Shown: positions 908 to 27,423 of the stretch, one piece after another | Layout: every line of letters begins with the position of its first letter | Position numbering within the stretch: the first letter of the stretch is position 1 | Assembly: GCA_017480425.1 (NCBI GenBank) | Contig: JAFVAR010000038.1 | Location: 1-33,658 of the forward strand | DNA from: a bacterium | GTDB taxonomy: Bacteria > Cyanobacteriota > Vampirovibrionia > Gastranaerophilales > Gastranaerophilaceae | Length of the DNA: 33,658 bases | Reading direction: 5' to 3' | Made by a program: the position numbers and the translations under genes | Notes under the pieces: generated by a model | Databases searched by the model: none | What the model was told of the DNA's origin: nothing | Seen by the model: the letters and a program-made list of their open reading frames with translations, nothing else

Positions 908-1954
908 ATGTCACAAAATCAAAAAACAAGGCAAATTACTGTAGCGGAGATGGCTCCTCATGTTCATTCTTTTGCAGTTGGAGAAAATAAGGTTAATAAA
1001 ATTTCTGATTGGCTGACTAATTGGATTATATCAGCCTTAAATTCAGGCATGATTAAACCGTTTGATTTTTTACCGTCAAAAGGAGAACTTGCTTTTCATA
1101 TCGGCGTAAGTTTAGGCACAATACAGAACGTGTACAGGACGCTTGAAGATGCGGGATTGGTTGAATCAAAACAAAAAATAGGTACTTATATTAAAGGGAC
1201 TAATAATATAGAAAAGCTTTCTTCTAAAAGAGAAGTTGCTTGCGAATTAATAAAGAAATATATAAAGGACAATTCTTTGTCAAATGGCGATTTTTTAGTT
1301 TCGGTGAGAAAATTGTCGAAAGAACTCAATATCCCGAATACAACCCTTAGAATAGCAGTAAATACACTAATTCAGCAAAATATAATAGAATCAAAAGAAA
1401 AACATTTTGTGATTAGAAGTACTGACTTTGAAATTAATAATGTAGAAACTGAAAATTTAGTACAAAAAATAGCTGATAATCTTAAAAATATTATAAATAC
1501 AAGTTACAGACCGAATGAAAAGCTTCCTTCGAATTTTTTGCTTGCCCAAAAATATAATGTCAGTATAAAAACAATTCATGATGCGGTGAAATTATTGGAA
1601 AAAGAAGGGATTTTGAGAACAAAACGCGGAAACTATGGCACTTTTGTTGCAAATCCTGATTCAGAAGTCGAATTGTACAACTATGAAAAAATTGAGGCAA
1701 AGATAAGGCACTTTATAATAAAAAATTATAAGGTGGGTGATAAACTTCCGCCAATAAGGGATTTTGCAAAAGAATATAATGTAAGCACTAAGACAATAAA
1801 AAAAGCATTAGATAACCTTGCGGAAGACGGGTATGTTGCTTTTTCCAGAGGAAGGATTGGCGGAACTTTTGTGCTTGATATTCCGCAAAAAGGGGATGAA
1901 ACATATACTTGGCTTGCAATTAATCCGGATTATATTCAAAATGCCCGAAATTAA
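908..1954 (+). CDS. Regulator with four tandem GntR-type winged-helix domains
   Basis: This 348-residue protein appears to consist almost entirely of GntR-like DNA-binding units. Unit 1 (about 31-96) has FLPSKGELAFHIGVSLGTIQ and ends GTYI. Unit 2 (about 107-170) is the most diverged (SVRKLSKELNIPNTTLR). Unit 3 (about 182-247) has EKLPSNFLLAQKYNVSIKTI and ends YGTFV. Unit 4 (about 258-322) has DKLPPIRDFAKEYNVSTKTI and ends GGTFV. Units 1, 3 and 4 keep the P-S/P-x(n)-L/F-A-x(3)-VS-x-x-T-I pattern and the wing G-T-F/Y-V/I. Ordinary GntR regulators have one such domain plus an effector domain (FadR, HutC, MocR or YtrA types); no effector domain is seen here. ATG 908 follows a weak AGGGT ribosome site. 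It may bind an extended or repeated operator. Target and ligand are unknown. Confidence 0.8.
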   Translation: MSQNQKTRQITVAEMAPHVHSFAVGENKVNKISDWLTNWIISALNSGMIKPFDFLPSKGELAFHIGVSLGTIQNVYRTLEDAGLVESKQKIGTYIKGTNNIEKLSSKREVACELIKKYIKDNSLSNGDFLVSVRKLSKELNIPNTTLRIAVNTLIQQNIIESKEKHFVIRSTDFEINNVETENLVQKIADNLKNIINTSYRPNEKLPSNFLLAQKYNVSIKTIHDAVKLLEKEGILRTKRGNYGTFVANPDSEVELYNYEKIEAKIRHFIIKNYKVGDKLPPIRDFAKEYNVSTKTIKKALDNLAEDGYVAFSRGRIGGTFVLDIPQKGDETYTWLAINPDYIQNARN

Positions 1955-7566: not shown

Positions 7567-7590
7567 AGTAGGTTGGGTGAAACCCAGCAA
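7567..7590 (+). repeat. REP palindrome, third copy, inside the hydrogenase operon
   Basis: It matches the first 24 bases of the RAYT-flanking REP with one substitution, which changes one stem pair from T-A to a T-G wobble so that the RNA hairpin still forms. It lies 22 bases after the hndC stop and ends just before the hndD ribosome site AAAGGA (7595-7599). Confidence 0.88.
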
Positions 7591-7606
7591 CATAAAGGAA
7601 AATAAA

Positions 7607-9382
7607 ATGAGTGAAGATAAAAAAACATTAATAATTGAAGGTAAAGAAGTTGAGTTTACAAACGAAGCTAATTTACTTGAAGTAATAAGAAAAGCGGGAA
7701 TGAATGTTCCAACACTTTGTTACAGACCTGATTTAACTTCTTTTGGTGCTTGCAGAATGTGCGTTGTTGAAGTTGAATATCCAAATGGAAGAAAAATGAT
7801 TAATTCTTCTTGCACAATGCCTCCTGAAGCAGGTATTAAAGTTCATTTAAATACAGAAAAAGTCAGAAAAATCAGAAAAATGGTTCTTGAACTTCTTCTT
7901 GCAAACCATGACAGAGAATGTACAACTTGTGATAAATCAGGAAACTGTGAACTTCAAAGATATGCAGAAGAATACGGTATCAAAAAAGTTAAGCAATACG
8001 CACAAAGAGAGGTTATGGCTCCGATTGATGATTCATCTTGTGCTTTGGTTCGTGATAATAATAAATGTATTTTATGCGGAGCATGTGTAAGAGCTTGTGA
8101 TGAGCACCAAGGCTTACAAGTTTTGGGCTTTGCAAACAGAGGCAGCAAAACGGTTGTTGAACCTATGGCAGGAAAAGAGCTTGCAAAGAGCGAATGTATA
8201 AACTGCGGTCAATGTGCTGCAGTCTGCCCTACAGGAGCTTTGACAATTAATTCAACTCAGCTTGATGATGTTTGGAATGCTATTACAAACCCTGAAAAGA
8301 AAGTTGTTGTTCAATTTGCACCATCTGTTCGTGTAGCAATCGGTGAAATGTTCGGACTTGAACCCGGGGTAAATTCTACAAAGAAGATTAACGCAGCATT
8401 AAGGAAGATTGGTTTTGATTTAGTGTTTGATACAAACTTCTCAGCAGATTTAACAATTATGGAAGAAGCACATGAATTTATAGACAGACTTCAAAATGGT
8501 GGTAAGTTGCCACTGTTCACATCATGCTGCCCAGGATGGGTTAGATTTTTGGAATTACAGCATCCTGATATGCTTGATCATTTGTCTAGTTGCAAATCGC
8601 CGCAAGGCATGATGGGTGCTATTATTAGAGAATATGTTCCTAAGTATTATGAAGATATAAAATCGGAAAATCTTGTAAGCGTTTCTATAATGCCTTGTAC
8701 TGCTAAAAAATACGAAGCTAAGAGAGAACAATTTAAGATGGCAGACGGAAGACAAGAAATTGACTACGTTTTGACAACACAAGAACTTGGCAGAATGATT
8801 AAAGGCGCAGGTATCGACTTTAAAACTCTCGAAGGAGAAGAGCCGGATTCTCCATTTGGTAAATATACAGGTGCAGGAACAATCTTCGGTGTTTCAGGCG
8901 GTGTTGCTGAAGCTGCAGCAAGAACTGCTTACGAAGTTGTTACTGGTGAAACTCTTCAAAATGTTGTTATTGATGACATGAGGGGCACTAAGAGAGTTAA
9001 GACTGTTGAATTAGATCTTAAAGGAACAAAGATTAAGGTTAAAATCGTGAACACTCTAAGAGAAGCTGAAAAATGCATGAGAGAAATCAAAGAAGGTAAA
9101 GCAGATTATCAACTTCTTGAGGTTATGGCATGTCCCGGAGGATGTATTAACGGCGGCGGTCAACCTCAAAGCTGCAACGATTCAAATATCAAGGAGCTTA
9201 GAGCAAAAGGTTTGTACAAAGATGATGAAACAGGTGAATTGAGAAAATCACATGAAAACCCTGAAATCAAGGATTTGTACGCAAAACACCTTGAAAAACC
9301 AAACTCTCATAAAGCACACGAACTCTTGCATACTACATATGTTAACAAGAGAAACGATTGTTATATCTCTGTCGGAGAATAA
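7607..9382 (+). CDS. hndD: [FeFe]-hydrogenase catalytic subunit, HndD/HydA type
   Basis: The product is 591 residues. ATG 7607 follows AAAGGA; an in-frame GTG at 7577 lies inside the REP and is rejected. In order: a plant-type [2Fe-2S] domain (C38, C49, C52, C69), a His-Cys [4Fe-4S] site (H101, C105, C108, C114), a 2x[4Fe-4S] ferredoxin (C154, C157, C160, C164; C197, C200, C203, C207), and the H-cluster domain with L1 TSCCPGW (305-311), L2 MPCTAKKYE (362-370) and L3 MACPGGC (507-513). A small-subunit-like tail follows (NPEIKDLYAKHLEKP). This is the modular form found in trimeric, electron-bifurcating-type cytoplasmic hydrogenases. The H-cluster needs HydE, HydF and HydG, all encoded just downstream on the other strand. 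A terminator follows. Confidence 0.97.
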   Translation: MSEDKKTLIIEGKEVEFTNEANLLEVIRKAGMNVPTLCYRPDLTSFGACRMCVVEVEYPNGRKMINSSCTMPPEAGIKVHLNTEKVRKIRKMVLELLLANHDRECTTCDKSGNCELQRYAEEYGIKKVKQYAQREVMAPIDDSSCALVRDNNKCILCGACVRACDEHQGLQVLGFANRGSKTVVEPMAGKELAKSECINCGQCAAVCPTGALTINSTQLDDVWNAITNPEKKVVVQFAPSVRVAIGEMFGLEPGVNSTKKINAALRKIGFDLVFDTNFSADLTIMEEAHEFIDRLQNGGKLPLFTSCCPGWVRFLELQHPDMLDHLSSCKSPQGMMGAIIREYVPKYYEDIKSENLVSVSIMPCTAKKYEAKREQFKMADGRQEIDYVLTTQELGRMIKGAGIDFKTLEGEEPDSPFGKYTGAGTIFGVSGGVAEAAARTAYEVVTGETLQNVVIDDMRGTKRVKTVELDLKGTKIKVKIVNTLREAEKCMREIKEGKADYQLLEVMACPGGCINGGGQPQSCNDSNIKELRAKGLYKDDETGELRKSHENPEIKDLYAKHLEKPNSHKAHELLHTTYVNKRNDCYISVGE

Positions 9383-9693: not shown

Positions 9694-10677
9694 CTATCCT
9701 TTTCTAAATCCTTTTTCTTTGCTTATGGTTCTTCCGATTGCACGGATTTTGCCTTCAATGCACCCTCTGCATTGTTCAGGGTTTTCATTTATACAAATTT
9801 TTCCTGGGTAGATTTCGTATTTTGCCCGATATTCTTTTGATGTTACGTTTGGCATTACAACATTGGCTCCGCTTTGTAATGCGATTATTCTGCCGTTTGG
9901 ATTAAGCGTTTCCATTGCGGTAGTTGCAGGAATGTTAATATCGGGAAGACATAACCTTGTAATTGCCATAACTTTTAAGGCAAGCCAAAAATCGCCTTTT
10001 GCACAATCTTTTAAAGGGGTTTGTTTGTGAGGAATAAACGGGCCGATTCCTATCATGTCAGCATCCAGTTCTTTAAAAAACAAAATGTCATCAGCAAGTG
10101 ATTCTATTGTTTGATTTGGCAGACCGACAAGACAACCGGTTCCTGTTTCAAACCCAAGAGATTTTAAATTATATAAACATTGTTTTCTGTTTTCATAGCT
10201 GGCATTTGGATGCATTTCTTCATAGAGACGTTTGTCAGTAGTTTCGATTCTCAGAAGATATCTGTCTGCGCCGGCTTTTTTAAACGCTTTAAATTCATCA
10301 TACGTTTTTTCACCGATACTAAGCGTAAGAGCTATATCGTGCTTTTTGATTTCACGGATAATTTCGAGCATTTTGTCAGTGTCATAGAAATTATCTTCGC
10401 CCGATTGCAGGACAATTGTCCTATATCCCATATCTATTGCATTTTTTGTATATAAAAGTATTTCGTCTTTAAGGATTCTGTATCGCTCAATTTCTTTGTT
10501 TTCGCTTCGCAAACCGCAATACTTACACTGTCTTTTGCAAATGTTGGAAAATTCTATAAGTCCTCTAAGGTGTACTTTGTCACCGACATTTTCTTTACGA
10601 ACACGGTTAGCTTCTTTAAATAGCCAATCGTTTTTTGTTTCATCGGATAAAATATTTATGATTTCTTGCTTATTCAT
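9694..10677 (-). CDS. hydE: [FeFe]-hydrogenase maturase HydE (radical SAM)
   Basis: The product is 327 residues, starting at ATG 10677 with GAGGA upstream. It overlaps the end of hydF by 8 bases, so the in-frame TTG at 10683 is not needed. The radical-SAM cluster motif C47-x3-C51-x2-C54 sits in NICKRQCKYC. Other family stretches include LQSGEDNFYD, RIETTDKRLYEEMHP and GIGPFIPHKQTPL. HydE works on the HydG-derived Fe(CO)2(CN)-cysteine synthon on the way to the azadithiolate bridge of the H-cluster. A C-terminal C-x7-C-x2-C (KICINENPEQCRGC) may hold a second, non-essential cluster. It is the last gene of the maturation operon. Confidence 0.95.
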   Translation of the reverse strand: MNKQEIINILSDETKNDWLFKEANRVRKENVGDKVHLRGLIEFSNICKRQCKYCGLRSENKEIERYRILKDEILLYTKNAIDMGYRTIVLQSGEDNFYDTDKMLEIIREIKKHDIALTLSIGEKTYDEFKAFKKAGADRYLLRIETTDKRLYEEMHPNASYENRKQCLYNLKSLGFETGTGCLVGLPNQTIESLADDILFFKELDADMIGIGPFIPHKQTPLKDCAKGDFWLALKVMAITRLCLPDINIPATTAMETLNPNGRIIALQSGANVVMPNVTSKEYRAKYEIYPGKICINENPEQCRGCIEGKIRAIGRTISKEKGFRKG

Positions 10678-11860
10678 TCTCAAATATCCTCAGAGCTCTT
10701 TCTAAAATTCCGTTCATATAAGCGATTGCCATTCCATAATTTACAATTGGAATATTTTGTTCGGATGCTCGCTTAACTCTGTTTTTCATTTCTGCTTCAT
10801 TTATCATACATCCGCCGCAGTGGATAATTAATTTGTATTTGCTTAAATCTAACGGAAATTCTCCGCCTTGAGTAAATTCAAAATCAATATTTTTACCTGT
10901 ATAATTTTTTATCCACATAGGAAATTTTACTGTACCAATATCGTTACACTGCCTGTGATGCGAACAAGCTTCCGATATCAATATTTTATCGCCGTCTTGT
11001 AATTTTGAAATAGTTTTCGCACCTTCTAAAAGTTTATTTAAATTACCCTTGTATTGTGCCATAAGAATTGAAAAAGAAGAAAGTATAATATTTTCAGGTA
11101 CAATATCTTTAACTTTGTTAAAAGCCTGTGAATCAGTAATAACGTACTTTGGAGTGTATGTATTAAGAATTATTTTCAGCTCTTGAATCTGGCAGCAAAT
11201 TGCAGTTGCGTGCGCATCAAGGCACTCCCTTAAAACATTTTGTTGTGGCAAAATAATCCTTCCTTTGGGTGCCGATTCGTCAATAGGAATTACAAGAATA
11301 ACGATATCACCGGCTTTTAATCTGTCTTTAATGATATATTTTTCAACTTTATTTTCACTTGCTATTTTACTCAAAAGCTCACGAAGTTCATTAATCCCCT
11401 CACCGGTTACCGCAGAAACAGCAAGTTCTCCAGCCCCTTGAGGGAGTGGGTTAGGAGGCAGGTATGATTTATTTATAAGATCGCTCTTGTTATAAACAAC
11501 AACATAAGGTAGTTTTCTTTCTTCAAAAAGTTGAATTATTTTTTTATCATATTCATTTATGCCAATAGTTGAATCAACAATGAGAACGGCAATATCAGTT
11601 TTTCCTAATACCTGCATTGTTTTTTCTATACGGAGTTCGCCCAGTTTACCCCCGTCATCAAGTCCAGCTGTATCAATAATTACAACAGGTCCTATCGGTA
11701 GGAGCTCCATTGCTTTTTGAACAGGGTCAGTTGTTGTCCCTTTAATATCAGATACAACAGACAAAGCTTGATTTGTAACCGCATTTACTACAGAAGATTT
11801 GCCTGCGTTTGTACATCCAAAAAATGCAATATGTGGTCGTTCGGATTTTGTAATCTGCAT
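10670..11860 (-). CDS. hydF: [FeFe]-hydrogenase maturation GTPase and scaffold HydF
   Basis: The product is 396 residues. The GTPase domain has G1 GCTNAGKSS (15-23), G3 DTAG (63-66), G4 NKSD (124-127) and G5 SAVTG (149-153). A dimerisation domain follows, then the cluster-binding domain with C299-x-H301 and H347-C348-x2-C351, the CxH...HCxxC signature. HydF holds the 2Fe precursor made by HydE and HydG and delivers it to apo-hydrogenase. Residues 134-145 (YLPPNPLPQGAG) between G4 and G5 look like an inserted repeat (see 11426-11458). ATG 11860 has AGGGG upstream and follows the hydG stop by 14 bases. Confidence 0.95.
   Translation of the reverse strand: MQITKSERPHIAFFGCTNAGKSSVVNAVTNQALSVVSDIKGTTTDPVQKAMELLPIGPVVIIDTAGLDDGGKLGELRIEKTMQVLGKTDIAVLIVDSTIGINEYDKKIIQLFEERKLPYVVVYNKSDLINKSYLPPNPLPQGAGELAVSAVTGEGINELRELLSKIASENKVEKYIIKDRLKAGDIVILVIPIDESAPKGRIILPQQNVLRECLDAHATAICCQIQELKIILNTYTPKYVITDSQAFNKVKDIVPENIILSSFSILMAQYKGNLNKLLEGAKTISKLQDGDKILISEACSHHRQCNDIGTVKFPMWIKNYTGKNIDFEFTQGGEFPLDLSKYKLIIHCGGCMINEAEMKNRVKRASEQNIPIVNYGMAIAYMNGILERALRIFENE
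11426..11458 (-). repeat. In-frame repeat-like insertion within hydF
   Basis: This 33-base stretch encodes PPNPLPQGAGE. It is more GC- and C-rich than its surroundings and contains CCCT-CA-AGGG. Peptides of the type PxPNPLPxGEG are well known as translations of dispersed palindromic repeats. It lies in a surface loop of the GTPase domain, where length variation could be tolerated. Only one copy is present in this window, so its repeat status is an inference. Confidence 0.5.
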
Positions 11861-11874
11861 ATTTTACCCCTATA

Positions 11875-13314
11875 CTAAAATCTAAAGTCTCTGTTTCCTT
11901 TTTCGATTTCTTTAAGGTTATTTTTTAATATGTTTCTGACTGCTTCAGATGGCACATTATTAATTTCTTTTTCGATTAATCTTTCACCAATGGCTTTAGT
12001 TTCAGGTGTTGCATAGTCCATGAGGAATTCTTTTAAAGTAATAAGTGCATTTGGATGGCAGCAATTTTGTATCTGTCCTGTTTTGCACAGTGACATAAAT
12101 CTGTCACCGGTTCGTCCTTCTCTGTAGCAAGCTGTACAGAAAGACGGAATTCTTCCTTGCTCCATAAGCCATCTTACGACTTCATCCAATGTTCTTTGGT
12201 CTGAAACGTCAAATTGTTCCGTATCAACAGGTCTTTCTTCCTGAGTGTACCCGCCAACAGATGTTCTTGAAGCACCTGAAACTTGCGAAACGCCGAGTTG
12301 AAGCAATTTTTCTCTTACAGCCTGTGTTTCACGAGTAGAAATAATTATGCCGGTATAAGGAACTGCAATACGAGTTAATGCAACAATTTTTGCGAATGTT
12401 TCGTCATCAATTCCGTTATCAAAGGCATTTGGGTCAATATCGTCCGCTTTTTTTACACGAGGAACAGAAATTGTATGAGGACCGACTCCGTGAACCGCTT
12501 CCAAGTGTTCTGCATGCATCAAAAGTGCGGCGAATTCGTATTTATAGCGTTCTAATCCAAATAAAACACCTAATCCTACATCATCAATTCCGCCTTCCAT
12601 CGCCCTGTCCATTGCTTCTGTATGGTATGCATAATTATGCTTTGGTCCTGTCGGGTGAAGTCTTTCATAACTTTCTTTGTGATATGTTTCTTGGAAGAGA
12701 ATGTAAGTTCCTATGCCTGCTTCTTTTAATTTCCTGTAGTTTTCAACGGTTGTAGCTGCAATATTAACATTAACACGTCTTATAGCACCATTCTTATGCT
12801 TAATTGAATAAATTGTTTTTATACATTCCAGAATGTATTCAATAGGATTATTGACCGGGTCTTCTCCGGATTCAATCGCAAGACGTTTATGTCCCATATC
12901 TTGAAGTGCAATAACTTCTGCTTTAACTTCTTCCTGAGTAAGTTTTTTACGTGGAATATGCTTATTTTGATGATGATATGGACAATATATGCAGCCGTTT
13001 ACACAATAATTTGAAAGATACAACGGTGCAAAAATTACAATCCTGTTACCATAAAATGCTTCTTTTATTTCTTCTGCAAGTTTATAAATCTTGTTTAAAA
13101 TATTTTTATCTTCGCAAGCCAGAAGAATACTTGCTTCTTCGTGAGTCAAGCCTTTACAATGGACTTCTTTTCCGTCTTTTACCGGTCTTGCTTTTTTTAA
13201 AATATTCTCGATTAATTCTATATTATTTTTGTTTTTTTCTGCATAATCCAGAGTTCTTAAAACTTCTTCGTGACTAATAAATTCTTCCGCTTTTAGTGAT
13301 TTTTTATCGTACAT
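11875..13314 (-). CDS. hydG: [FeFe]-hydrogenase maturase HydG (tyrosine lyase)
   Basis: The product is 479 residues. The radical-SAM motif C104-x3-C108-x2-C111 lies in NYCVNGCIYC. The C-terminal auxiliary-cluster motif is C393-x2-C396-x13-C410 (FCTACYREGRTGDRFMSLC), the mark that separates HydG from ThiH. HydG cleaves tyrosine to p-cresol, CO and cyanide and builds the Fe(CO)2(CN)-cysteine synthon passed to HydE. ATG 13314 has AGAGGA upstream. The order regulator-hydG-hydF-hydE on one strand, facing the hydrogenase operon, makes a complete maturation set. Confidence 0.96.
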   Translation of the reverse strand: MYDKKSLKAEEFISHEEVLRTLDYAEKNKNNIELIENILKKARPVKDGKEVHCKGLTHEEASILLACEDKNILNKIYKLAEEIKEAFYGNRIVIFAPLYLSNYCVNGCIYCPYHHQNKHIPRKKLTQEEVKAEVIALQDMGHKRLAIESGEDPVNNPIEYILECIKTIYSIKHKNGAIRRVNVNIAATTVENYRKLKEAGIGTYILFQETYHKESYERLHPTGPKHNYAYHTEAMDRAMEGGIDDVGLGVLFGLERYKYEFAALLMHAEHLEAVHGVGPHTISVPRVKKADDIDPNAFDNGIDDETFAKIVALTRIAVPYTGIIISTRETQAVREKLLQLGVSQVSGASRTSVGGYTQEERPVDTEQFDVSDQRTLDEVVRWLMEQGRIPSFCTACYREGRTGDRFMSLCKTGQIQNCCHPNALITLKEFLMDYATPETKAIGERLIEKEINNVPSEAVRNILKNNLKEIEKGNRDFRF

Positions 13315-13362
13315 AATTATCCTCTTTTGCTAATAAATAAGTGACTTTAATTTGTCACAATT

Positions 13363-13608
13363 TTACATATTTGAATATACTGTTTTTGCATTAACGTGTT
13401 CTATTTTACCTATTTTCCCCGTAAGTGCGTTTATTGTATCAGATGGAGCATCAAGAACTACGCTAATTATTCTGATATTTTTTTGTTTGTACGGAATTCC
13501 CATTCTGCCTATAATATATTCGGAATATTCAGATAAAATATTTTGTATATTGCAAATAACTGCATCGTTTTCAACGATAATACTAATGATTGCAACTCTT
13601 GTTTCCAT
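13363..13608 (-). CDS. TM1266-type iron-only hydrogenase system regulator
   Basis: This 81-residue protein has the ACT/NikR-C-like pattern of the TM1266 family: METRVAIISIIVENDAV, then YIIGRMGIPYKQKNIRIISV and a C-terminal ALTGKIGKI. The family is nearly always found beside hydE, hydF or hydG and is called a putative regulator; it lacks a DNA-binding domain, so it probably senses a small ligand or contacts a partner. It is the first gene of the maturation operon, 48 bases before hydG. ATG 13608 follows AAGGAG. The ribosome site begins right after a strong terminator (13625-13663). Confidence 0.9.
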   Translation of the reverse strand: METRVAIISIIVENDAVICNIQNILSEYSEYIIGRMGIPYKQKNIRIISVVLDAPSDTINALTGKIGKIEHVNAKTVYSNM

Positions 13609-13750
13609 TATTTTTCTCCTTTTTTAAATAAAAAATGTCGTGCCAGCAAAGACACGACATTTTATAAATGACGTTGACTTTCTGCTCAGGAAGTAACCTT
13701 TACAGTCAGGCACACCTTTATTATTAAATAAATATGCTTATGAAGTCAAC
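13609..13750 (-). promoter_or_regulatory. Promoter and attenuator-like leader of the hydrogenase maturation operon
   Basis: On the minus strand a TTGACT box (about 13744-13749), 17 bases and TAATAA give a plausible promoter. The predicted transcript then has about 50 bases that can pair locally (TGACT with AGTCA, GTAA with TTAC), an intrinsic terminator (13625-13663) and the ribosome site of the regulator gene. A terminator placed between promoter and first gene implies conditional readthrough. No known riboswitch consensus was recognised by eye. The 8-base pair GTTGACTT (13673-13680) / AAGTCAAC (13743-13750) could be structural or a coincidence with the -35 box. Confidence 0.5.
13625..13663 (-). 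terminator. Intrinsic terminator before the maturation operon
   Basis: A perfect 11-bp stem, AAAATGTCGTG with CACGACATTTT, and a 10-base loop; on the minus strand a T-rich tail follows. It lies only about 20 bases before the start codon of the TM1266-like gene. It could end transcripts of the hypothetical gene at 13774-15444, act in attenuation, or both. Confidence 0.85.
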
Positions 13751-13773: not shown

Positions 13774-15444
13774 TTATATATCTTTTCCCATATCAGAAAT
13801 ATCATATTGAACTCCGCAAGGGAAAAGTGTACAGATTATTCCGTTATGATTATGCTGTCCATTGTGAACTTTGCTGAAGGTAATTCGTATAGGAATTGTG
13901 CCCAATATTTTTTGTATATCACTGCTTAAATTTTCCGGTTCAATTAACATTGTCGGAGCGTAAGCAATTTTGTTTTCAAAAGTTCCGTCTTGTAATTTCT
14001 TTTTTTGCATTTTTTCAAAAATCTGAAATTTGCCGCCTTTTATAAATGTTTGTTTTATTGCGTTTTCAAGAGCCGGTATTAAAATTTCGCATTGTTCTTC
14101 AATTGATTTATTACTGTTGAAATCAACAAATCTATCAATAAATCTCATGGCAGAGTGTAATGAAAATAAGTTTTTAAACATACCTGTTGAAAGAACATCT
14201 GCAATTTCTTCCGCATTATTAGTATTAATATTAACATAACCGTGATTTATACGTTTACGTTTAACAAGTTCATTAAGAATGTCTTCTTTTGTAGCTCTTA
14301 CGACACAAGCACGTCTTAGAATATACGGGCTTGGATTTTGGGGGTTAGCTTTTTTTGTTTTTTCGATAAATTTATTAAATAATGAACTAAACCCATTTTG
14401 GACATTTGATAAAGTTCCTGGTATACGTATAATATATGAATCGGACTCGTCTTCAAGCTCTGTTGGTTCTACAATTTCTGATTCTTTTGAAACATCTTCA
14501 GTTTGTTGTTCTGATAATGTTGTTTTTTTTCTGCTTCCATAATTTATTGTATTCAAATCTACGAATCCTACTTGTTTAACTCCGGGAAGTTTACGAGATT
14601 CCGGACTGTCAAATATTTCAGGTTCACTTTTTTGTCCTGTTGTTTCATTATTTTCTGTTACAGATTCTTCTGATATATCCTGAGGTTCATTTTCTTCGTT
14701 TGTTTCGGGGGTTGATACATAAAGACTAAATTCATCAATCACTTCTTCTAAAGGAGTTTCATTAGTGAGTGCTGCGGACATATTTTCTACAAATTTTTGA
14801 GTAAATTCAGCATTATTAAGAGTTTCTCCATTTACATTAAATGATTTTTTACTGCGAATATCAAGACATAATTTTTCGAGTTTTTCTGCATGATTTTGGG
14901 GCAGTGAAAGCATTTCAACAAATGCTTTTAGGTTAGATTCGTGTGCTTTTAATCTGCCGATTTTTTTAGGATATGAAACTTTAACTATATTTGTTTCTTT
15001 CTCAACAACATCTTCTCCGATTATTCTAATTTCATCTTCAGAAATGTTGTCCGGTTCGTTATTTTCAGGTTCAGTTGCTTGTATAATTTCCAACTCTTCA
15101 TCTTCGATATTTTTATCAGCATAATCAGCATAATTTTGTACATATTTTTCTGTCAGATTTTCAGGGCTGTCGCAAATTATGTCTGCATGTTTATTAATTT
15201 CCCCGTCAGCTAAAGCTTTTAATGCACTATATGCTGCTGCCATGAAGGCTCCAAAACCTGCTAAATGTTTTGGGTTATTTAAAATTTCTTTAGCGGCATC
15301 TTGCATTCCGCCTCGGAAAGAAGGTGTTGTGGAAACATAAGTATCTCCGGAGATATTGTTGCTGCGAAATGGTGTAATTCTGTTATTTTGTACTTTTTGC
15401 AAATCAGAAAATTTTAAAATTTGATAATTTGGGGTAATTTTCAT
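13774..15444 (-). CDS. Large hypothetical protein with N-terminal PSFRG motif
   Basis: The product is 556 residues with no recognised family. It begins MKITPNYQILKFSDLQKVQN, has TPSFRGGMQDAAKEIL near residue 42 and a short Ala-rich hydrophobic stretch (GFGAFMAAAYSALKAL, about 68-83) that could be a weak membrane helix. A long acidic, probably disordered region rich in Glu, Asn, Ser and Thr covers about 100-330. A folded C-terminal third (about 350-556) contains KFIEKTKKANPQ, a Lys/Arg-rich segment and HNGQHNHNGIICTLFPCGV near the end. Many proteins of gut Melainabacteria that I recall carry a similar short N-terminal S-F-K/R-G motif of unknown role. ATG 15444 follows AGAAGGA. Confidence 0.85.
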   Translation of the reverse strand: MKITPNYQILKFSDLQKVQNNRITPFRSNNISGDTYVSTTPSFRGGMQDAAKEILNNPKHLAGFGAFMAAAYSALKALADGEINKHADIICDSPENLTEKYVQNYADYADKNIEDEELEIIQATEPENNEPDNISEDEIRIIGEDVVEKETNIVKVSYPKKIGRLKAHESNLKAFVEMLSLPQNHAEKLEKLCLDIRSKKSFNVNGETLNNAEFTQKFVENMSAALTNETPLEEVIDEFSLYVSTPETNEENEPQDISEESVTENNETTGQKSEPEIFDSPESRKLPGVKQVGFVDLNTINYGSRKKTTLSEQQTEDVSKESEIVEPTELEDESDSYIIRIPGTLSNVQNGFSSLFNKFIEKTKKANPQNPSPYILRRACVVRATKEDILNELVKRKRINHGYVNINTNNAEEIADVLSTGMFKNLFSLHSAMRFIDRFVDFNSNKSIEEQCEILIPALENAIKQTFIKGGKFQIFEKMQKKKLQDGTFENKIAYAPTMLIEPENLSSDIQKILGTIPIRITFSKVHNGQHNHNGIICTLFPCGVQYDISDMGKDI

Positions 15445-23114: not shown

Positions 23115-25178
23115 ATGGCAGACATTAACAATAATGATATCTGGATTGATGTAGAGACATTAGCAAAATTAAAAAACATTACTCGAAGAGCAGTTCGGCT
23201 TGCGCTTAATCAAAATAAATATGAATACAAAGTCGAAAATATCAGAGGTGGTAAAACTTATAAGATTAAATTATCTACACTTGAAGAGGAGCTCCAGCTT
23301 AAATATTTTCAGGAATATTATGATGATTATAAAACCTGTGAAAATGAGATTATTGAGCTATCAAATCTGAATATCAAACAGGAAAAACTTATATCTGAAA
23401 ACCAAAAGAAAATTGCACTCGCTAAATATGATTTAATCTATGCTTGGCTTGATTTTAGGAAAGAACATAAAAGAGATAAACTCAAAACCAACGGCAACAT
23501 TCCCGATAAAGAATTTTTGCAATTATATAATACCGGAATGTTTCAAGAGGAGATTTTTAAGACTTTAGGAAGAGTTTCAATCGGTTCTCTTTATCGCTGG
23601 CGGGCATTATTAAATTATAACAAGGATTGGACTGCGTTAGTCGGGCAATATAAATATTCAACAAGAAAAGAATACCGAACAACATTAAATGAAGAACAGT
23701 CAAAAATATTTATACAGATATTATTATCCCCAAGCGCATTTTCTATCGGAAAGTCTATAACATTAACAAAACATATATTAAATGAACGTGGTTATGAAAT
23801 ACTTCCAAAAGATGTAACATTCAGAAGATATGCTGAATGGTTTCGGGACAACAACTTTGATAAATGGACACTCGCCCGACATGGAGAAAAAGCACTTAAG
23901 GATAAAGTTGCACCATATATCGTAAGAAACGCATCATTACTTAAACCTGCACAAGTGCTTATTGCCGATGGTCACGACCTCAACTTCCAAGTAATTAACC
24001 CTTTTACAGGCAGAGGGTGCAGAGCGACTTTAATCGGATTTTTAGATTGGAAATCCGGCGGACTTGTAGGATATGACATTATGCTTGAGGAATGTACGCA
24101 AAATATTGCATCCGCTTTAAGAAATGCAATATTAAACTTGGATCACATTCCGCAATTTGTTTACCAAGATAACGGCAGAGCATTCAAAAGTAAATTCTTT
24201 AACGGAGATAAAAAGTTTGAGGAACTTGGATTTACAGGAGTTTACAAACGGCTTGGAATAGAACCTGTTTATGCCACTCCATATAACGCTCGTGCTAAAG
24301 TCATTGAGCGTTTCTTTTTAGAATTTCAGGAAAGCTTTGAAAAATTAGTGCCAAGTTATATCGGAACATCAATAGAGAATAAACCGGCGCACTTGATGAG
24401 GAATGAAAAATTACACAAACAAATCCATGAAAAATATAGTTTCACTCCAACGATAGAACAGGCTCGAATGATGATAGATAAATGGCTTGAATTTTATCAT
24501 TCCAAAGAATGCACCAATGTACCCGGCAAAACTATTCAACAGGTCATCAATGAAACAGAAAAACAGAATATTGATGAAAATATGCTTGATGATTTGATGA
24601 TGGCGCAGGAAATGAAAAATATCGGAAGAAACGGTATAAGATTTTTGAAGGCTGATTATTTTGACGAGGCACTATACGGAATCAGAGAAAAAACAGTTAT
24701 TAAATATAGTTTATTTGACCTTTCATATATTAAGGTTTACACCCTTAAAGGCGAATTTATTTGTAAAGCGCATCGTGTAACAGAAACTCATCCGCTTGCA
24801 AGTCAAATGGGTGATATTAACGACATTGAAGATTACAAACAAAAAATAGAAAAACAACAGAAATTACGCAAGAAAACCATAAAAGCAGTTCGGGAACATT
24901 TTAATCTTGAAGATATTGATTTTATTGAAAAAGAGTTGTTGGATAATATGAATTTTCAAAAAATTGAACCTGTAAAAGAAATAACTGTCCAACCTGAACC
25001 GGAGACAAAACAAGAATTTAAACCAAAAATTAAAACATCGATAGTCGCAAGACCGATTTTCAGAAACAACTTTGAAAGGTACGAATGGCACATCAATAAC
25101 GGATGTTTAAATCCAGAAGACAGGACTTGGTTTGAAAATTATGTAAAGTCAGATGAATACAGAGAAATATACAAGTAG
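23115..25178 (+). CDS. Mu-type DDE transposase (MuA/TniA-like)
   Basis: The product is 687 residues. An N-terminal winged-helix part (about 8-60; DVETLAKLKNITRRAVRLAL) resembles the Mu DNA-binding domain. The end-binding region (about 145-260) includes SIGSLYRWRALLNYNKDW and LNERGYEILPKDVTFRRYAEW. The RNase H-fold core has D285 (LIADGHD), D352 (VYQDNGRAFKS) and E398 (RAKVIERFFLEF), so all three catalytic acids are present. A beta-barrel and a charged C-terminal tail follow, the tail probably contacting the ATPase encoded next. It cuts and joins the transposon ends. ATG 23115 has TAAGGA 6 bases upstream. Catalytically it looks intact. Confidence 0.93.
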   Translation: MADINNNDIWIDVETLAKLKNITRRAVRLALNQNKYEYKVENIRGGKTYKIKLSTLEEELQLKYFQEYYDDYKTCENEIIELSNLNIKQEKLISENQKKIALAKYDLIYAWLDFRKEHKRDKLKTNGNIPDKEFLQLYNTGMFQEEIFKTLGRVSIGSLYRWRALLNYNKDWTALVGQYKYSTRKEYRTTLNEEQSKIFIQILLSPSAFSIGKSITLTKHILNERGYEILPKDVTFRRYAEWFRDNNFDKWTLARHGEKALKDKVAPYIVRNASLLKPAQVLIADGHDLNFQVINPFTGRGCRATLIGFLDWKSGGLVGYDIMLEECTQNIASALRNAILNLDHIPQFVYQDNGRAFKSKFFNGDKKFEELGFTGVYKRLGIEPVYATPYNARAKVIERFFLEFQESFEKLVPSYIGTSIENKPAHLMRNEKLHKQIHEKYSFTPTIEQARMMIDKWLEFYHSKECTNVPGKTIQQVINETEKQNIDENMLDDLMMAQEMKNIGRNGIRFLKADYFDEALYGIREKTVIKYSLFDLSYIKVYTLKGEFICKAHRVTETHPLASQMGDINDIEDYKQKIEKQQKLRKKTIKAVREHFNLEDIDFIEKELLDNMNFQKIEPVKEITVQPEPETKQEFKPKIKTSIVARPIFRNNFERYEWHINNGCLNPEDRTWFENYVKSDEYREIYK

Positions 25179-25190
25179 AAAGGAGAATAG

Positions 25191-25910
25191 ATGAAAAAAG
25201 TTTTTGTAAAAACAAATAATGTAAAACGGTTCATTACGATGATGAATAATCTGCAAAACCGAGCGGAAGGAGTTCCCGGAATGGGACTTGTATATGGTGA
25301 ACCCGGATTAGGCAAAACACAGACAATAAATTGGTGGGCATTCAAAAATAACGCAATACTTGTCCGCTGTACTCAACTTATGACAGCTCGTTGGTTATTG
25401 ACTGAAATACTTGATGAAATGGGAGAACTTAGCGGCTATAAAATATCTGATTGCTTTAAACTTGTAGTCAGAAATTTGTTAGTAAATCCGCAAATAATAA
25501 TTGTTGATGAAGTTGATTATTTAACGGTAGATTCAAGAGCGGTAGAAACTTTAAGGGACATTCATGATAAAACGAATGTCCCTATTATTTTGGTTGGAAT
25601 GATTAATGCTAAATCAAGATTGAAAAAATTTAATCATTTATACGACAGATTATCTGAAATCGTAAAATTTGAGAAATTTTCAAAAGCGGATATAAAAACA
25701 ATTGTTCAGGAATTATCTGAAGTTGAAATGACAGACTGCGCTATAAGGTATATTTATACTAATTTAAACAGATTCCGACAAATTGTAAAAGTCATAAACA
25801 AAGCTGAAATAATAGCAAAAGCAAACGGATTAAATTCTATTGACGAAATACTTATAAAGGAGGCAATTGCGAATGAAACAGAAAATATTGAAACTAATCA
25901 AGAATCTTGA
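25191..25910 (+). CDS. MuB/TniB-type AAA+ ATPase
   Basis: The product is 239 residues. Walker A is GEPGLGKT (36-43) and Walker B IIIVDEVDYL with D106 and E107; the sensor region reads PIILVGMINAK. A C-terminal helical part follows (LNRFRQIVKVINKAEI). MuB-type ATPases form filaments on target DNA, recruit the transposase and give target immunity. It lacks the N-terminal helix-turn-helix of phage Mu MuB, being closer in size to TniB-like proteins. It begins 12 bases after the transposase stop with AAAGGAG, and its last 38 bases overlap the next gene. Confidence 0.9.
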   Translation: MKKVFVKTNNVKRFITMMNNLQNRAEGVPGMGLVYGEPGLGKTQTINWWAFKNNAILVRCTQLMTARWLLTEILDEMGELSGYKISDCFKLVVRNLLVNPQIIIVDEVDYLTVDSRAVETLRDIHDKTNVPIILVGMINAKSRLKKFNHLYDRLSEIVKFEKFSKADIKTIVQELSEVEMTDCAIRYIYTNLNRFRQIVKVINKAEIIAKANGLNSIDEILIKEAIANETENIETNQES

Positions 25911-27423
25911 AAAATTTAAATCTGAGGATATTATTACTTTAACCGAATTAAGTGAAGATATAGTGAACAAATATCTCGAAGAATTGTTGGCAGAAGATAA
26001 AATTTGCAAAATAGCAAATTATGAGTATGCGTATTTACCGGAAATTATAGAAAAAGCAGATACTAAAACTGGAGAAACAAGCGGAATATACAAAAAGCCA
26101 ATCTATAAAATAGATCTTAAAAAAGAAAGAATAGAAGATATAAAACCTGAGGAATTATTTCCCAAAAAGGATGAGGTCAAATTTTTTAATGAAACAAAAG
26201 ATTATAATAAAAGAAATATCGTAAAAATTTTAACTGTTTTTAAACTTGCCGGTAATTTAAGGGGAGAGAGCTTAAAAAAATATTTAAAAGAACTGTCAAT
26301 CAAGCATCCTGAATATAAAATTTCATATTCAAATTATGTAAAATATCAAAGAAAATATTTAGCACAAGGGATTAGAGGGCTGTGTCTTAAATATGCAAAC
26401 TACGCAAATGTAAAAACTTCAGTTAAACCTGAAATGTATGAGATATTTAAAAAATATTATTTATCAAATAAACAATACTCGCTAACGGCAGCATATAAAA
26501 TTGTATGCAGAAGTTTCCCTGATTGTGATATTCCAAGTAAAATGAGTTTTAACAGACTTTTACTAAAGGAGTATAAGCCTGAGCATATAAAACAATTAAG
26601 GGAAACTCCAATAAATCTGCCTGATTTATCATACAATGTTAAAAAAGAAATTGCTGATAAATTGTTATTTGATAAATTTATTGATGCTGCGCATTATCAT
26701 TATGATTTATTAGATAAGAAAAATACCGAATCGGCAATTTGTCAAAAAGGTTATATTAAAAACCATTTAATACCATATTTTGAAGGGTATAAATTTAAAG
26801 ATATTACTCAGGACATTATAATTAACTACCAAAGTAAAATGGTCTCTCTAGGGTATTCAATAGCAAGTATCCGCAGATTTTTATCGGTATTAAGCATTTT
26901 ATTTTCAAAATATTCAGAATGTGCAGAAGATTTAAATTTCGTATCAGATAATGCACCAATTCCGTCATTGGAAATAAGTTATTATACAAACAAAGAAATA
27001 AAGGAAATAATATATAATAAAAAGCCGGAATTGTGGATATTGTGTTTAGGAATAACTCCGGCAGAACTATCCGCATTAAGATACGAGGATATAGATAAAA
27101 ATAACAGAACTGTTTTTATTCAAAGAACCGTATTTCAAGGAGTAGAGCAACCGCACAGAGCAAAATACCGTAAGCGCCACCTAAAAATTCCCGCAATAAT
27201 TTTTGATGATATAGATTTTAAAAATAAAGGTTTAATTTTTAAAGATATTGAAATTAATAATTATGACAAGCTTATAAATACGCATATTCACCTGCTGTTA
27301 GAGAAAAACGTACAAATAAATATAATCAGCAAAAATCTTGGTTTTCATAATATTAAAGATTTTGAAAGCAGATATAATTTTTTGTTACCGCAAAAATTGG
27401 ATGATAATTTTCAAATTTTATAA
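25873..27423 (+). CDS. MuA-like DNA-binding region joined to a degenerate tyrosine recombinase
   Basis: The product is 516 residues from ATG 25873, which has AAAGGAGG upstream inside the ATPase gene. Residues 1-60 look like a winged helix. Residues about 110-245 resemble the end-binding part of Mu-type transposases (SNYVKYQRKYLAQGIRGLCL, YYLSNKQYSLTAAYKIV, PSKMSFNRLL). Residues about 260-350 match the core-binding domain of tyrosine recombinases and 365-516 the catalytic fold (LGITPAELSALRYEDID; LLLEKNVQINIISKNLGFHN). By alignment Arg-I is T395, the H-x-x-R box is D465/I468 and the LGH His is F491; only the Tyr (Y501) and possibly a Lys near 431 remain. It is therefore probably a non-catalytic DNA-binding or assembly factor. 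No equivalent is known to me in Mu, Tn7 or Tn5053. Confidence 0.75.
   Translation: MKQKILKLIKNLEKFKSEDIITLTELSEDIVNKYLEELLAEDKICKIANYEYAYLPEIIEKADTKTGETSGIYKKPIYKIDLKKERIEDIKPEELFPKKDEVKFFNETKDYNKRNIVKILTVFKLAGNLRGESLKKYLKELSIKHPEYKISYSNYVKYQRKYLAQGIRGLCLKYANYANVKTSVKPEMYEIFKKYYLSNKQYSLTAAYKIVCRSFPDCDIPSKMSFNRLLLKEYKPEHIKQLRETPINLPDLSYNVKKEIADKLLFDKFIDAAHYHYDLLDKKNTESAICQKGYIKNHLIPYFEGYKFKDITQDIIINYQSKMVSLGYSIASIRRFLSVLSILFSKYSECAEDLNFVSDNAPIPSLEISYYTNKEIKEIIYNKKPELWILCLGITPAELSALRYEDIDKNNRTVFIQRTVFQGVEQPHRAKYRKRHLKIPAIIFDDIDFKNKGLIFKDIEINNYDKLINTHIHLLLEKNVQINIISKNLGFHNIKDFESRYNFLLPQKLDDNFQIL

Follow-up and report, generated by a model that had tools for sequence, protein, structure and literature searches.

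How is the assembly of the [FeFe]-hydrogenase cofactor controlled at this locus, and what does the RNA ahead of the assembly genes contribute? [FeFe]-hydrogenases produce much of the H2 of the anaerobic gut, and to our knowledge little is known about the control of the costly cofactor assembly by HydE, HydF and HydG. The window, i.e. the whole stretch of 33,658 nucleotides analysed in the present study, belongs to a draft-genome contig of Gastranaerophilales and has a GC content of 30-37%. Its minus strand carries an operon, TM1266-hydG-hydF-hydE, recognised by profile matches, and a [FeFe]-hydrogenase gene lies beside this operon on the opposite strand (7577-9382). The results suggest that the leader of the operon probably switches off the metal-cofactor genes of hydrogen-making enzymes. 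The original prediction, made from the window alone, described an attenuator-like leader in which a promoter, a pairing-capable RNA and an 11-bp perfect terminator precede the TM1266-like gene, with the ribosome site right after the terminator. All of these parts were recovered on the minus strand, in the order promoter, conserved RNA, terminator and ribosome site:

13720-13749, minus strand: promoter TTGACT-18-AATAAT, 10 of 12 matches, with core spacing alike in relatives (by eye)
13628-13717, minus strand: conserved leader RNA, the whole match of covariance model R1
13709-13713, minus strand: GUGCC, 5' strand of P1, pairable with GGCAC of the terminator 3' arm, with order-level covariation
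13698-13709, minus strand: symmetric core, strand 1, CUGA-CUGU-AAAG (alignment, RNAalifold)
13678-13689, minus strand: symmetric core, strand 2, CUGA-GCAG-AAAG (alignment, RNAalifold)
13670-13681, minus strand: 5' strand of P3, AAAG and the next bases, complementary to the terminator 5' arm and loop
13651-13663, minus strand: terminator 5' arm, also the 3' strand of P3 (sequence)
13632-13644, minus strand: terminator 3' arm, also the 3' strand of P1, followed by the U tract (sequence)
13616-13620, minus strand: ribosome site AGGAG (sequence)
13363-13608, minus strand: gene for a TM1266-family protein, candidate core binder (TIGR03959, PF21699, NikR C-terminal-domain fold)
11875-13314, minus strand: hydG (TIGR03955)
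10670-11860, minus strand: hydF (TIGR03918)
9694-10683, minus strand: hydE (TIGR03956)

The terminator (13663-13632) has 13 pairs before the U tract, and because one of these is G-U, the perfect Watson-Crick run is the predicted 11 bp; the AGGAG at 13620-13616 follows directly, ahead of the TM1266 ATG at 13608. The promoter-like match of the window, taken alone, is at chance level (19 found vs 18.9 expected in a 5-kb region); among 24 leaders inspected by eye in relatives, 23 have a -35/-10 pair at equal distance from the core, L071 being doubtful. Judging from this promoter, transcription probably begins a few nucleotides ahead of GUGCCUGA. Compared with dinucleotide shuffles, the window RNA folds more stably, with a z of -3.3 from the likely start and of -4.5 with the promoter included. 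A long pairing, GUUGACUU/AAGUCAAC, was rejected, as it involves promoter bases and is unconserved.

Several other elements of the window were also recorded. A small hairpin, GUGAC...GUCAC, lies between TM1266 and hydG (13341-13358) and is not the core. Upstream of the leader, a 556-aa protein (13774-15444, minus strand) has no NCBIfam or Pfam match. A 348-aa protein (908-1954, plus strand) gave repeated GntR-type DNA-binding profile matches with no effector domain seen, and three genes at 23115-27423 (plus strand) resemble, by eye, a Mu-type transposase, its ATPase partner and a recombinase.

The leader is conserved within the order of the window. TM1266 is present in 27 of the 65 genomes of the genus, and the order-wide scan of 383 genomes gave 26, of which 21 are within the genus and 5 are additional. 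A covariance model (R1) built from 15 short-loop leaders of this order matched the window at 13717-13628 with 74.5 bits, a score to be read with the window in the training set. Upstream of TM1266, R1 matched a leader in 29 of the 32 TM1266-positive genomes of the order, comprising 25 of 27 in the genus and 4 of the 5 further ones (G046, G160, G387 and G390). No R1 match was obtained in G006 (core without terminator), in G065 (contig starting inside the gene) or in G261, the remaining genome outside the genus. Locus L014 has a core and no terminator, and the RNA alignments leave out both L028, which lacks upstream DNA, and L032, in which no leader was found. Those intermediate R1 matches away from TM1266 loci that were inspected by eye (L057-L060, L066-L070, L072, L073) resemble coding DNA or ordinary terminators. 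An extra conserved stretch, about GGGGGUAAAU ... AAACCUUU, is shared by the leaders whose apical arm is long (L004, L007, L010, L019, L021, L026) and is perhaps a second structural element.

The conserved part is a hairpin in which each strand reads CUGA-NNNN-RAAG, with near two-fold symmetry and many compensatory changes. In A1, the alignment of leaders from the window's order, 100% of the cells of core helix and terminator are paired, both-sided changes occur in 10 of 16 pairs, and the covariation is 0.526, compared with 0.265 after shuffling and at most 0.114 in a slid control. RNAalifold, run with no structure given, returned CU, two mismatches, four pairs, two mismatches and AG/CU, plus the terminator. 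In the cross-phylum core alignment of 29 leaders (A4), the basis of the joint core model R2, 97.1% of cells are paired and the covariation is 0.708 vs 0.274 shuffled. The outer CUGA is identical in all 29 leaders, and the outer RAAG is kept in 28-29 of 29 at each position, the first base being A or G. The inner CUGA copy is looser (U in 29, G in 17 and A in 22 of 29); the inner site is more variable, and therefore the symmetry of the core is approximate. Nine leaders of alignment A3 (L089, L091, L111, L112, L114, L119, L122, L133, L152), most with a three-pair P2, were dropped from A4 and R2 because the aligner put them out of register, and covariation was counted on no A3 alignment. The leader thus contains a conserved structured element with covariation, a hallmark of riboswitches. 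The comparison of upstream regions of TM1266-hydG operons in relatives, which had been called for, supports the attenuator-like reading. A leader lacking conservation outside its terminator, the outcome named as speaking against that reading, was not observed, because the structure there is conserved with compensatory changes.

The same RNA was found well beyond the order. The best 80 loci from a scan of a species collection for TM1266 relatives were taken, of which 75 came from other orders than that of the window, mostly from Clostridia. R1, trained on the window's order only, matched 15 of these 75 at E<=0.05, nearly all directly before TM1266. Conversely, a model from 19 Clostridia-type cores (R3), to which the window and its order were unseen, gave this leader the top score of the 33.7-kb window, at 18.9 bits and E 0.017 (runner-up 10.3 bits, E 2), and detected leaders at 15 of the 31 loci from the window's order at E<=1. 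Either group's model alone therefore recovers leaders of the other group, and the RNA element is common to Clostridia, Gastranaerophilales and some gut bins labelled Alphaproteobacteria. The original statement that no known riboswitch was recognised also stands against Rfam 15 (4227 families): at the gathering threshold, the window and 48 different loci gave tRNAs only, and every match of the window leader at E<=5 was below that threshold. These sub-threshold matches (L10 leader, HIV_FE, freshwater-2, GibS, PyrR and others) were taken as chance because they are far below gathering and lie on the terminator or the A/T-rich end. Moreover, no RNA element at the HydE/F/G assembly genes was found in the open-licence literature searched. 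These alignments and model searches place the window leader in an RNA family absent from Rfam 15.

Two pairings might compete with the terminator. A script located terminators in all but one of 79 leaders, and in that one (L200) a terminator is visible by eye; the 78 comprise 54 Clostridia-type leaders and 24 of the window's order. First, P3 joins the 12 nt after the core helix to the terminator 5' arm and loop, at -9.91 kcal with the leader's own terminator and -6.36 kcal with those of others (0 of 5000 permutations, n=78). Second, P1 joins the first RNA bases to the terminator loop and 3' arm, at -6.21 kcal (own) and -4.92 kcal (others', n=78). Since 31 of the Clostridia leaders came from or overlapped a list scored using P1 and P3, the figures for the 78 are to be read beside those for 23 Clostridia leaders taken from core-model matches or alike. 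In these 23 leaders, chosen by the core alone, P3 holds (-9.27 vs -6.54 kcal, 0 of 5000), whereas P1 is unsupported (-4.11 vs -3.99 kcal, 1790 of 5000), and P1 was rejected as a universal pairing. Leaders of the window's order do support P1 (4 of 5000 permutations), and the column pair 8-101 is standard in 13 of 15 leaders of the alignment of this order. In the window itself, P1 is UGUGCC/GGCACG at -9.8 kcal, and P3 is weak, at -4.2 kcal, weaker than in most relatives. When the terminator stem was disallowed in folding, 50 of the 78 leaders formed P1 and P3 jointly, and the terminator form is more stable than the alternative by 3.3 kcal on average and by 4.5 kcal in the window. An intrinsic terminator thus lies between promoter and first gene, and a conserved pairing exclusive with it is provided by P3 generally and by P1 in the window's order only. 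The leader is, with high probability, a two-state regulatory RNA, and we infer that read-through is regulated.

The genes behind the core might indicate what is being controlled. R2 was used to scan 391 genomes from the class of Massilioclostridium coli (G403, locus L083) at E<=0.02, with strict filters in the whole-genome scans by which weak copies are missed. The scan gave 41 places in 39 genomes, all of which were inspected. The gene directly downstream is TM1266 at 21 places, hydE at 6, hydG at 6 and hydF at 1; one place precedes a FecCD permease, one precedes aspartate ammonia-lyase and then hydF, and five are chance-like. The R2 matches L219, L220, L258, L259 and L268 were rejected as coding or unrelated DNA. 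Downstream genes were checked by profile for HydG (L203, L211), HydE (L199, L263), HydF (L202), AspA (L213), TM1266 (L261) and FecCD (L217), and the remaining ones were assigned by sequence likeness. AspA can provide ammonium for the dithiomethylamine ligand, and aspA often lies near hyd operons, according to an excerpt of PMC11736057. In two more genomes, the core and terminator stand before an SsuA/NMT1-like substrate-binding protein and permease (L165, 1501-2621; L178, 1501-2703), and the substrate of this transporter might be a clue to the signal. Judged by these neighbouring genes, the regulon is coherent, covering H-cluster assembly and perhaps the supply for it. At one locus (L145), core and terminator lie between TM1266 and hydE. 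In addition, a TM1266-like domain was seen at the C-terminus of an ABC transporter ATPase (L269, 2193-3293, and L270, minus strand), in a cluster ordered core, FecCD permease, ATPase:TM1266, HydE, NifH-like and NifD-like.

The core is also used in a second architecture. Among the 75 loci, it lies 12-16 nt before the hydG ATG in 9 of the 25 operons with a placeable hydG start; this core has no terminator, and 0 of 500 shuffles reproduced the 9 of 25. At these sites, the last strand of the core runs into AAAGGA or a similar ribosome site. Because the two architectures share the core alone, the closed core would be the recognised part and the bound state would be OFF, which we regard as fairly probable.

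TM1266 is the candidate for the binding factor, and it was the sole protein considered in the co-occurrence analysis. The protein is encoded in 34 of the 39 core-positive genomes vs 235 of all 391; of the five core-positive genomes without it, four hold chance-like matches (G536, G550, G561, G649) and one holds a real core (G487). A real core therefore occurs in 34 of 235 TM1266-positive and 1 of 156 TM1266-negative genomes (Fisher 2e-7, a value inflated by the kinship of the genomes). Because this co-occurrence could follow from merely having hyd genes, loci were also compared: the core is at 16 of 30 TM1266 loci (15 of 29 minus the training locus L252) and at 2 of 30 HydG loci of TM1266-negative genomes (Fisher 1.4e-4, overstated since the genomes are related). 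HydG was searched in 80 of the 156 TM1266-negative genomes, and its loci extend about 1.5 kb on each side. In two draft genomes (G487, G667), the core precedes hydG and no TM1266 was detected even at a relaxed cut-off, in a search covering 29 HydG-positive genomes. About half of the TM1266 loci have no core. The predicted structure of TM1266 (mean pLDDT 95.5) best matches Thermotoga TM1266 (Z 15.7), followed by NikR C-terminal domains (Z 12-13.7, rmsd 1.4-2.0, sequence identity 9-19%); the DNA-binding domain is absent from the model, and the charge balance is neutral, with 8 basic and 8 acidic residues. The NikR C-terminal domain is a symmetric tetramer with nickel, according to the title of PDB 2y3y. 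It is suggestive that a regulator-like protein lacking a DNA-binding part is encoded downstream of a near-symmetric RNA in the leader of its own gene; the two exceptions, the TM1266 loci with no core and the neutral charge balance count against TM1266 as the binder. The connection with iron or with the neighbouring regulator, raised at the outset as conceivable, has gained ground through the TM1266 co-occurrence, the FecCD site and the NikR-like fold.

Herein, we propose that the leader acts as a two-state cis-regulatory RNA in an H-cluster maturation regulon under negative feedback. In the ON state, the emerging 5' arm of the terminator would pair with AAAG and the following bases (P3), and in the window's order the first bases, GUGCC, could also hold the terminator 3' arm (P1) in a three-way junction, so that polymerase would read through. 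P3 can form before the terminator 3' arm is made, and therefore kinetics may favour ON first. In the OFF state, the core would close as a near two-fold-symmetric hairpin, 5'-CUGA-NNNN-RAAG-3' against itself, leaving both terminator arms free, and transcription would therefore stop; at loci with the core on the hydG ribosome site, the closed hairpin would block translation. The state would be set by a factor recognising the closed core, most likely TM1266 with its NikR-like sensor domain. The comparative analysis demonstrates, as far as sequences go, a conserved core, covariation, a terminator-exclusive P3, a regulon and TM1266 co-occurrence; from these we infer that TM1266 is the favoured candidate for the core binder. 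The whole proposal, i.e. negative feedback on H-cluster maturation with bound core OFF and TM1266 as the binder, is our leading reading and a tentative one. Against it weigh the weak P3 of the window and its terminator form, more stable by 4.5 kcal, the lack of support for P1 in the 23 Clostridia leaders, and the merely approximate symmetry of the core. A further reading, somewhat less likely than not, is that a NikR-type sensor domain with no DNA-binding part gave rise to an RNA-binding regulator, TM1266, which would clamp CUGA-N4-RAAG as a symmetric dimer or tetramer upon a signal, a metal or an H-cluster precursor, and would shut off the H-cluster genes at terminators and ribosome sites.

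Other explanations were weighed against this proposal. The strongest is a riboswitch, in which the core itself would bind a small molecule or ion, e.g. iron, an H-cluster precursor or a substrate of the controlled transporters, and TM1266 would be merely one regulated gene. The highly conserved CUGA and RAAG bases adjoin a freely varying helix, the core precedes transporter genes (FecCD at L217, SsuA/NMT1-like at L165 and L178) as riboswitches often do, and two genomes carry it without TM1266; however, these conserved bases are few for an aptamer, the core and TM1266 co-occur strongly, and the near two-fold symmetry suits a symmetric protein at least equally. A riboswitch is a real but lesser possibility, and TM1266 is slightly favoured as the candidate binder. 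It is rather improbable that another RNA-binding protein recognises the symmetric core while TM1266 acts elsewhere: at 21 of the 41 places the core is followed first by TM1266, although it is missing from two core-positive genomes and the core, short, hairpin-like and beside terminators or ribosome sites, resembles a protein-binding site. Finally, an unregulated partial terminator, whose conserved fold would set a fixed level of read-through, agrees with the average 3.3-kcal advantage of the terminator state and is very improbable given a leader-specific P3 exclusive with the terminator and the recurrence of the core at hydG ribosome sites without one.

The RNA element gives a map of the regulon and suggests what TM1266, an unexplained protein, might do, in a form that can be tested; it also points to candidate new players, including transporters and NifH/NifD-like proteins. 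If the proposal is true, [FeFe]-hydrogenase maturation in anaerobic gut bacteria would be under dedicated feedback control, and clamping by TM1266 would represent a new class of RNA-protein switch. If TM1266 does not bind, the leader would be a riboswitch with a ligand reporting on H-cluster assembly.

Several known systems resemble this leader in part. TRAP is an 11-mer reading unpaired (G/U)AG repeats, and its binding sites are also found at ribosome sites, like this core. The TRAP/trp leader of Bacillota, as outlined in excerpts of PMC3913778 and PMC4027176, shares the two exclusive folds and the termination of the bound leader. In contrast, what is conserved in the present leader is a hairpin that is closed and near-symmetric, and TM1266, the candidate protein, is unrelated to TRAP. 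ANTAR RNAs consist of two small hairpins with fixed six-base loops, and this leader differs from them in its one core hairpin, free loop length and conserved internal loops. ANTAR antitermination leaders have in common with it a hairpin overlapping the terminator, a protein binder (a candidate in the present case) and control after initiation, going by the portion of PMC3369931 that describes them. The HMP-PP (thiS motif) riboswitch, a terminator-embedded aptamer treated in part of PMC6478431, is likewise a short leader whose conserved sequence overlaps the terminator; the present leader, however, has no Rfam match, a symmetric core and an additional use at ribosome sites. Finally, TM1266 has the fold of the C-terminal regulatory domain of NikR (PDB 3pht, 2y3y, 1q5y and others), but at 9-19% identity and without the DNA-binding domain; should TM1266 bind the core, a metal-sensor domain would have been recruited from DNA to RNA.
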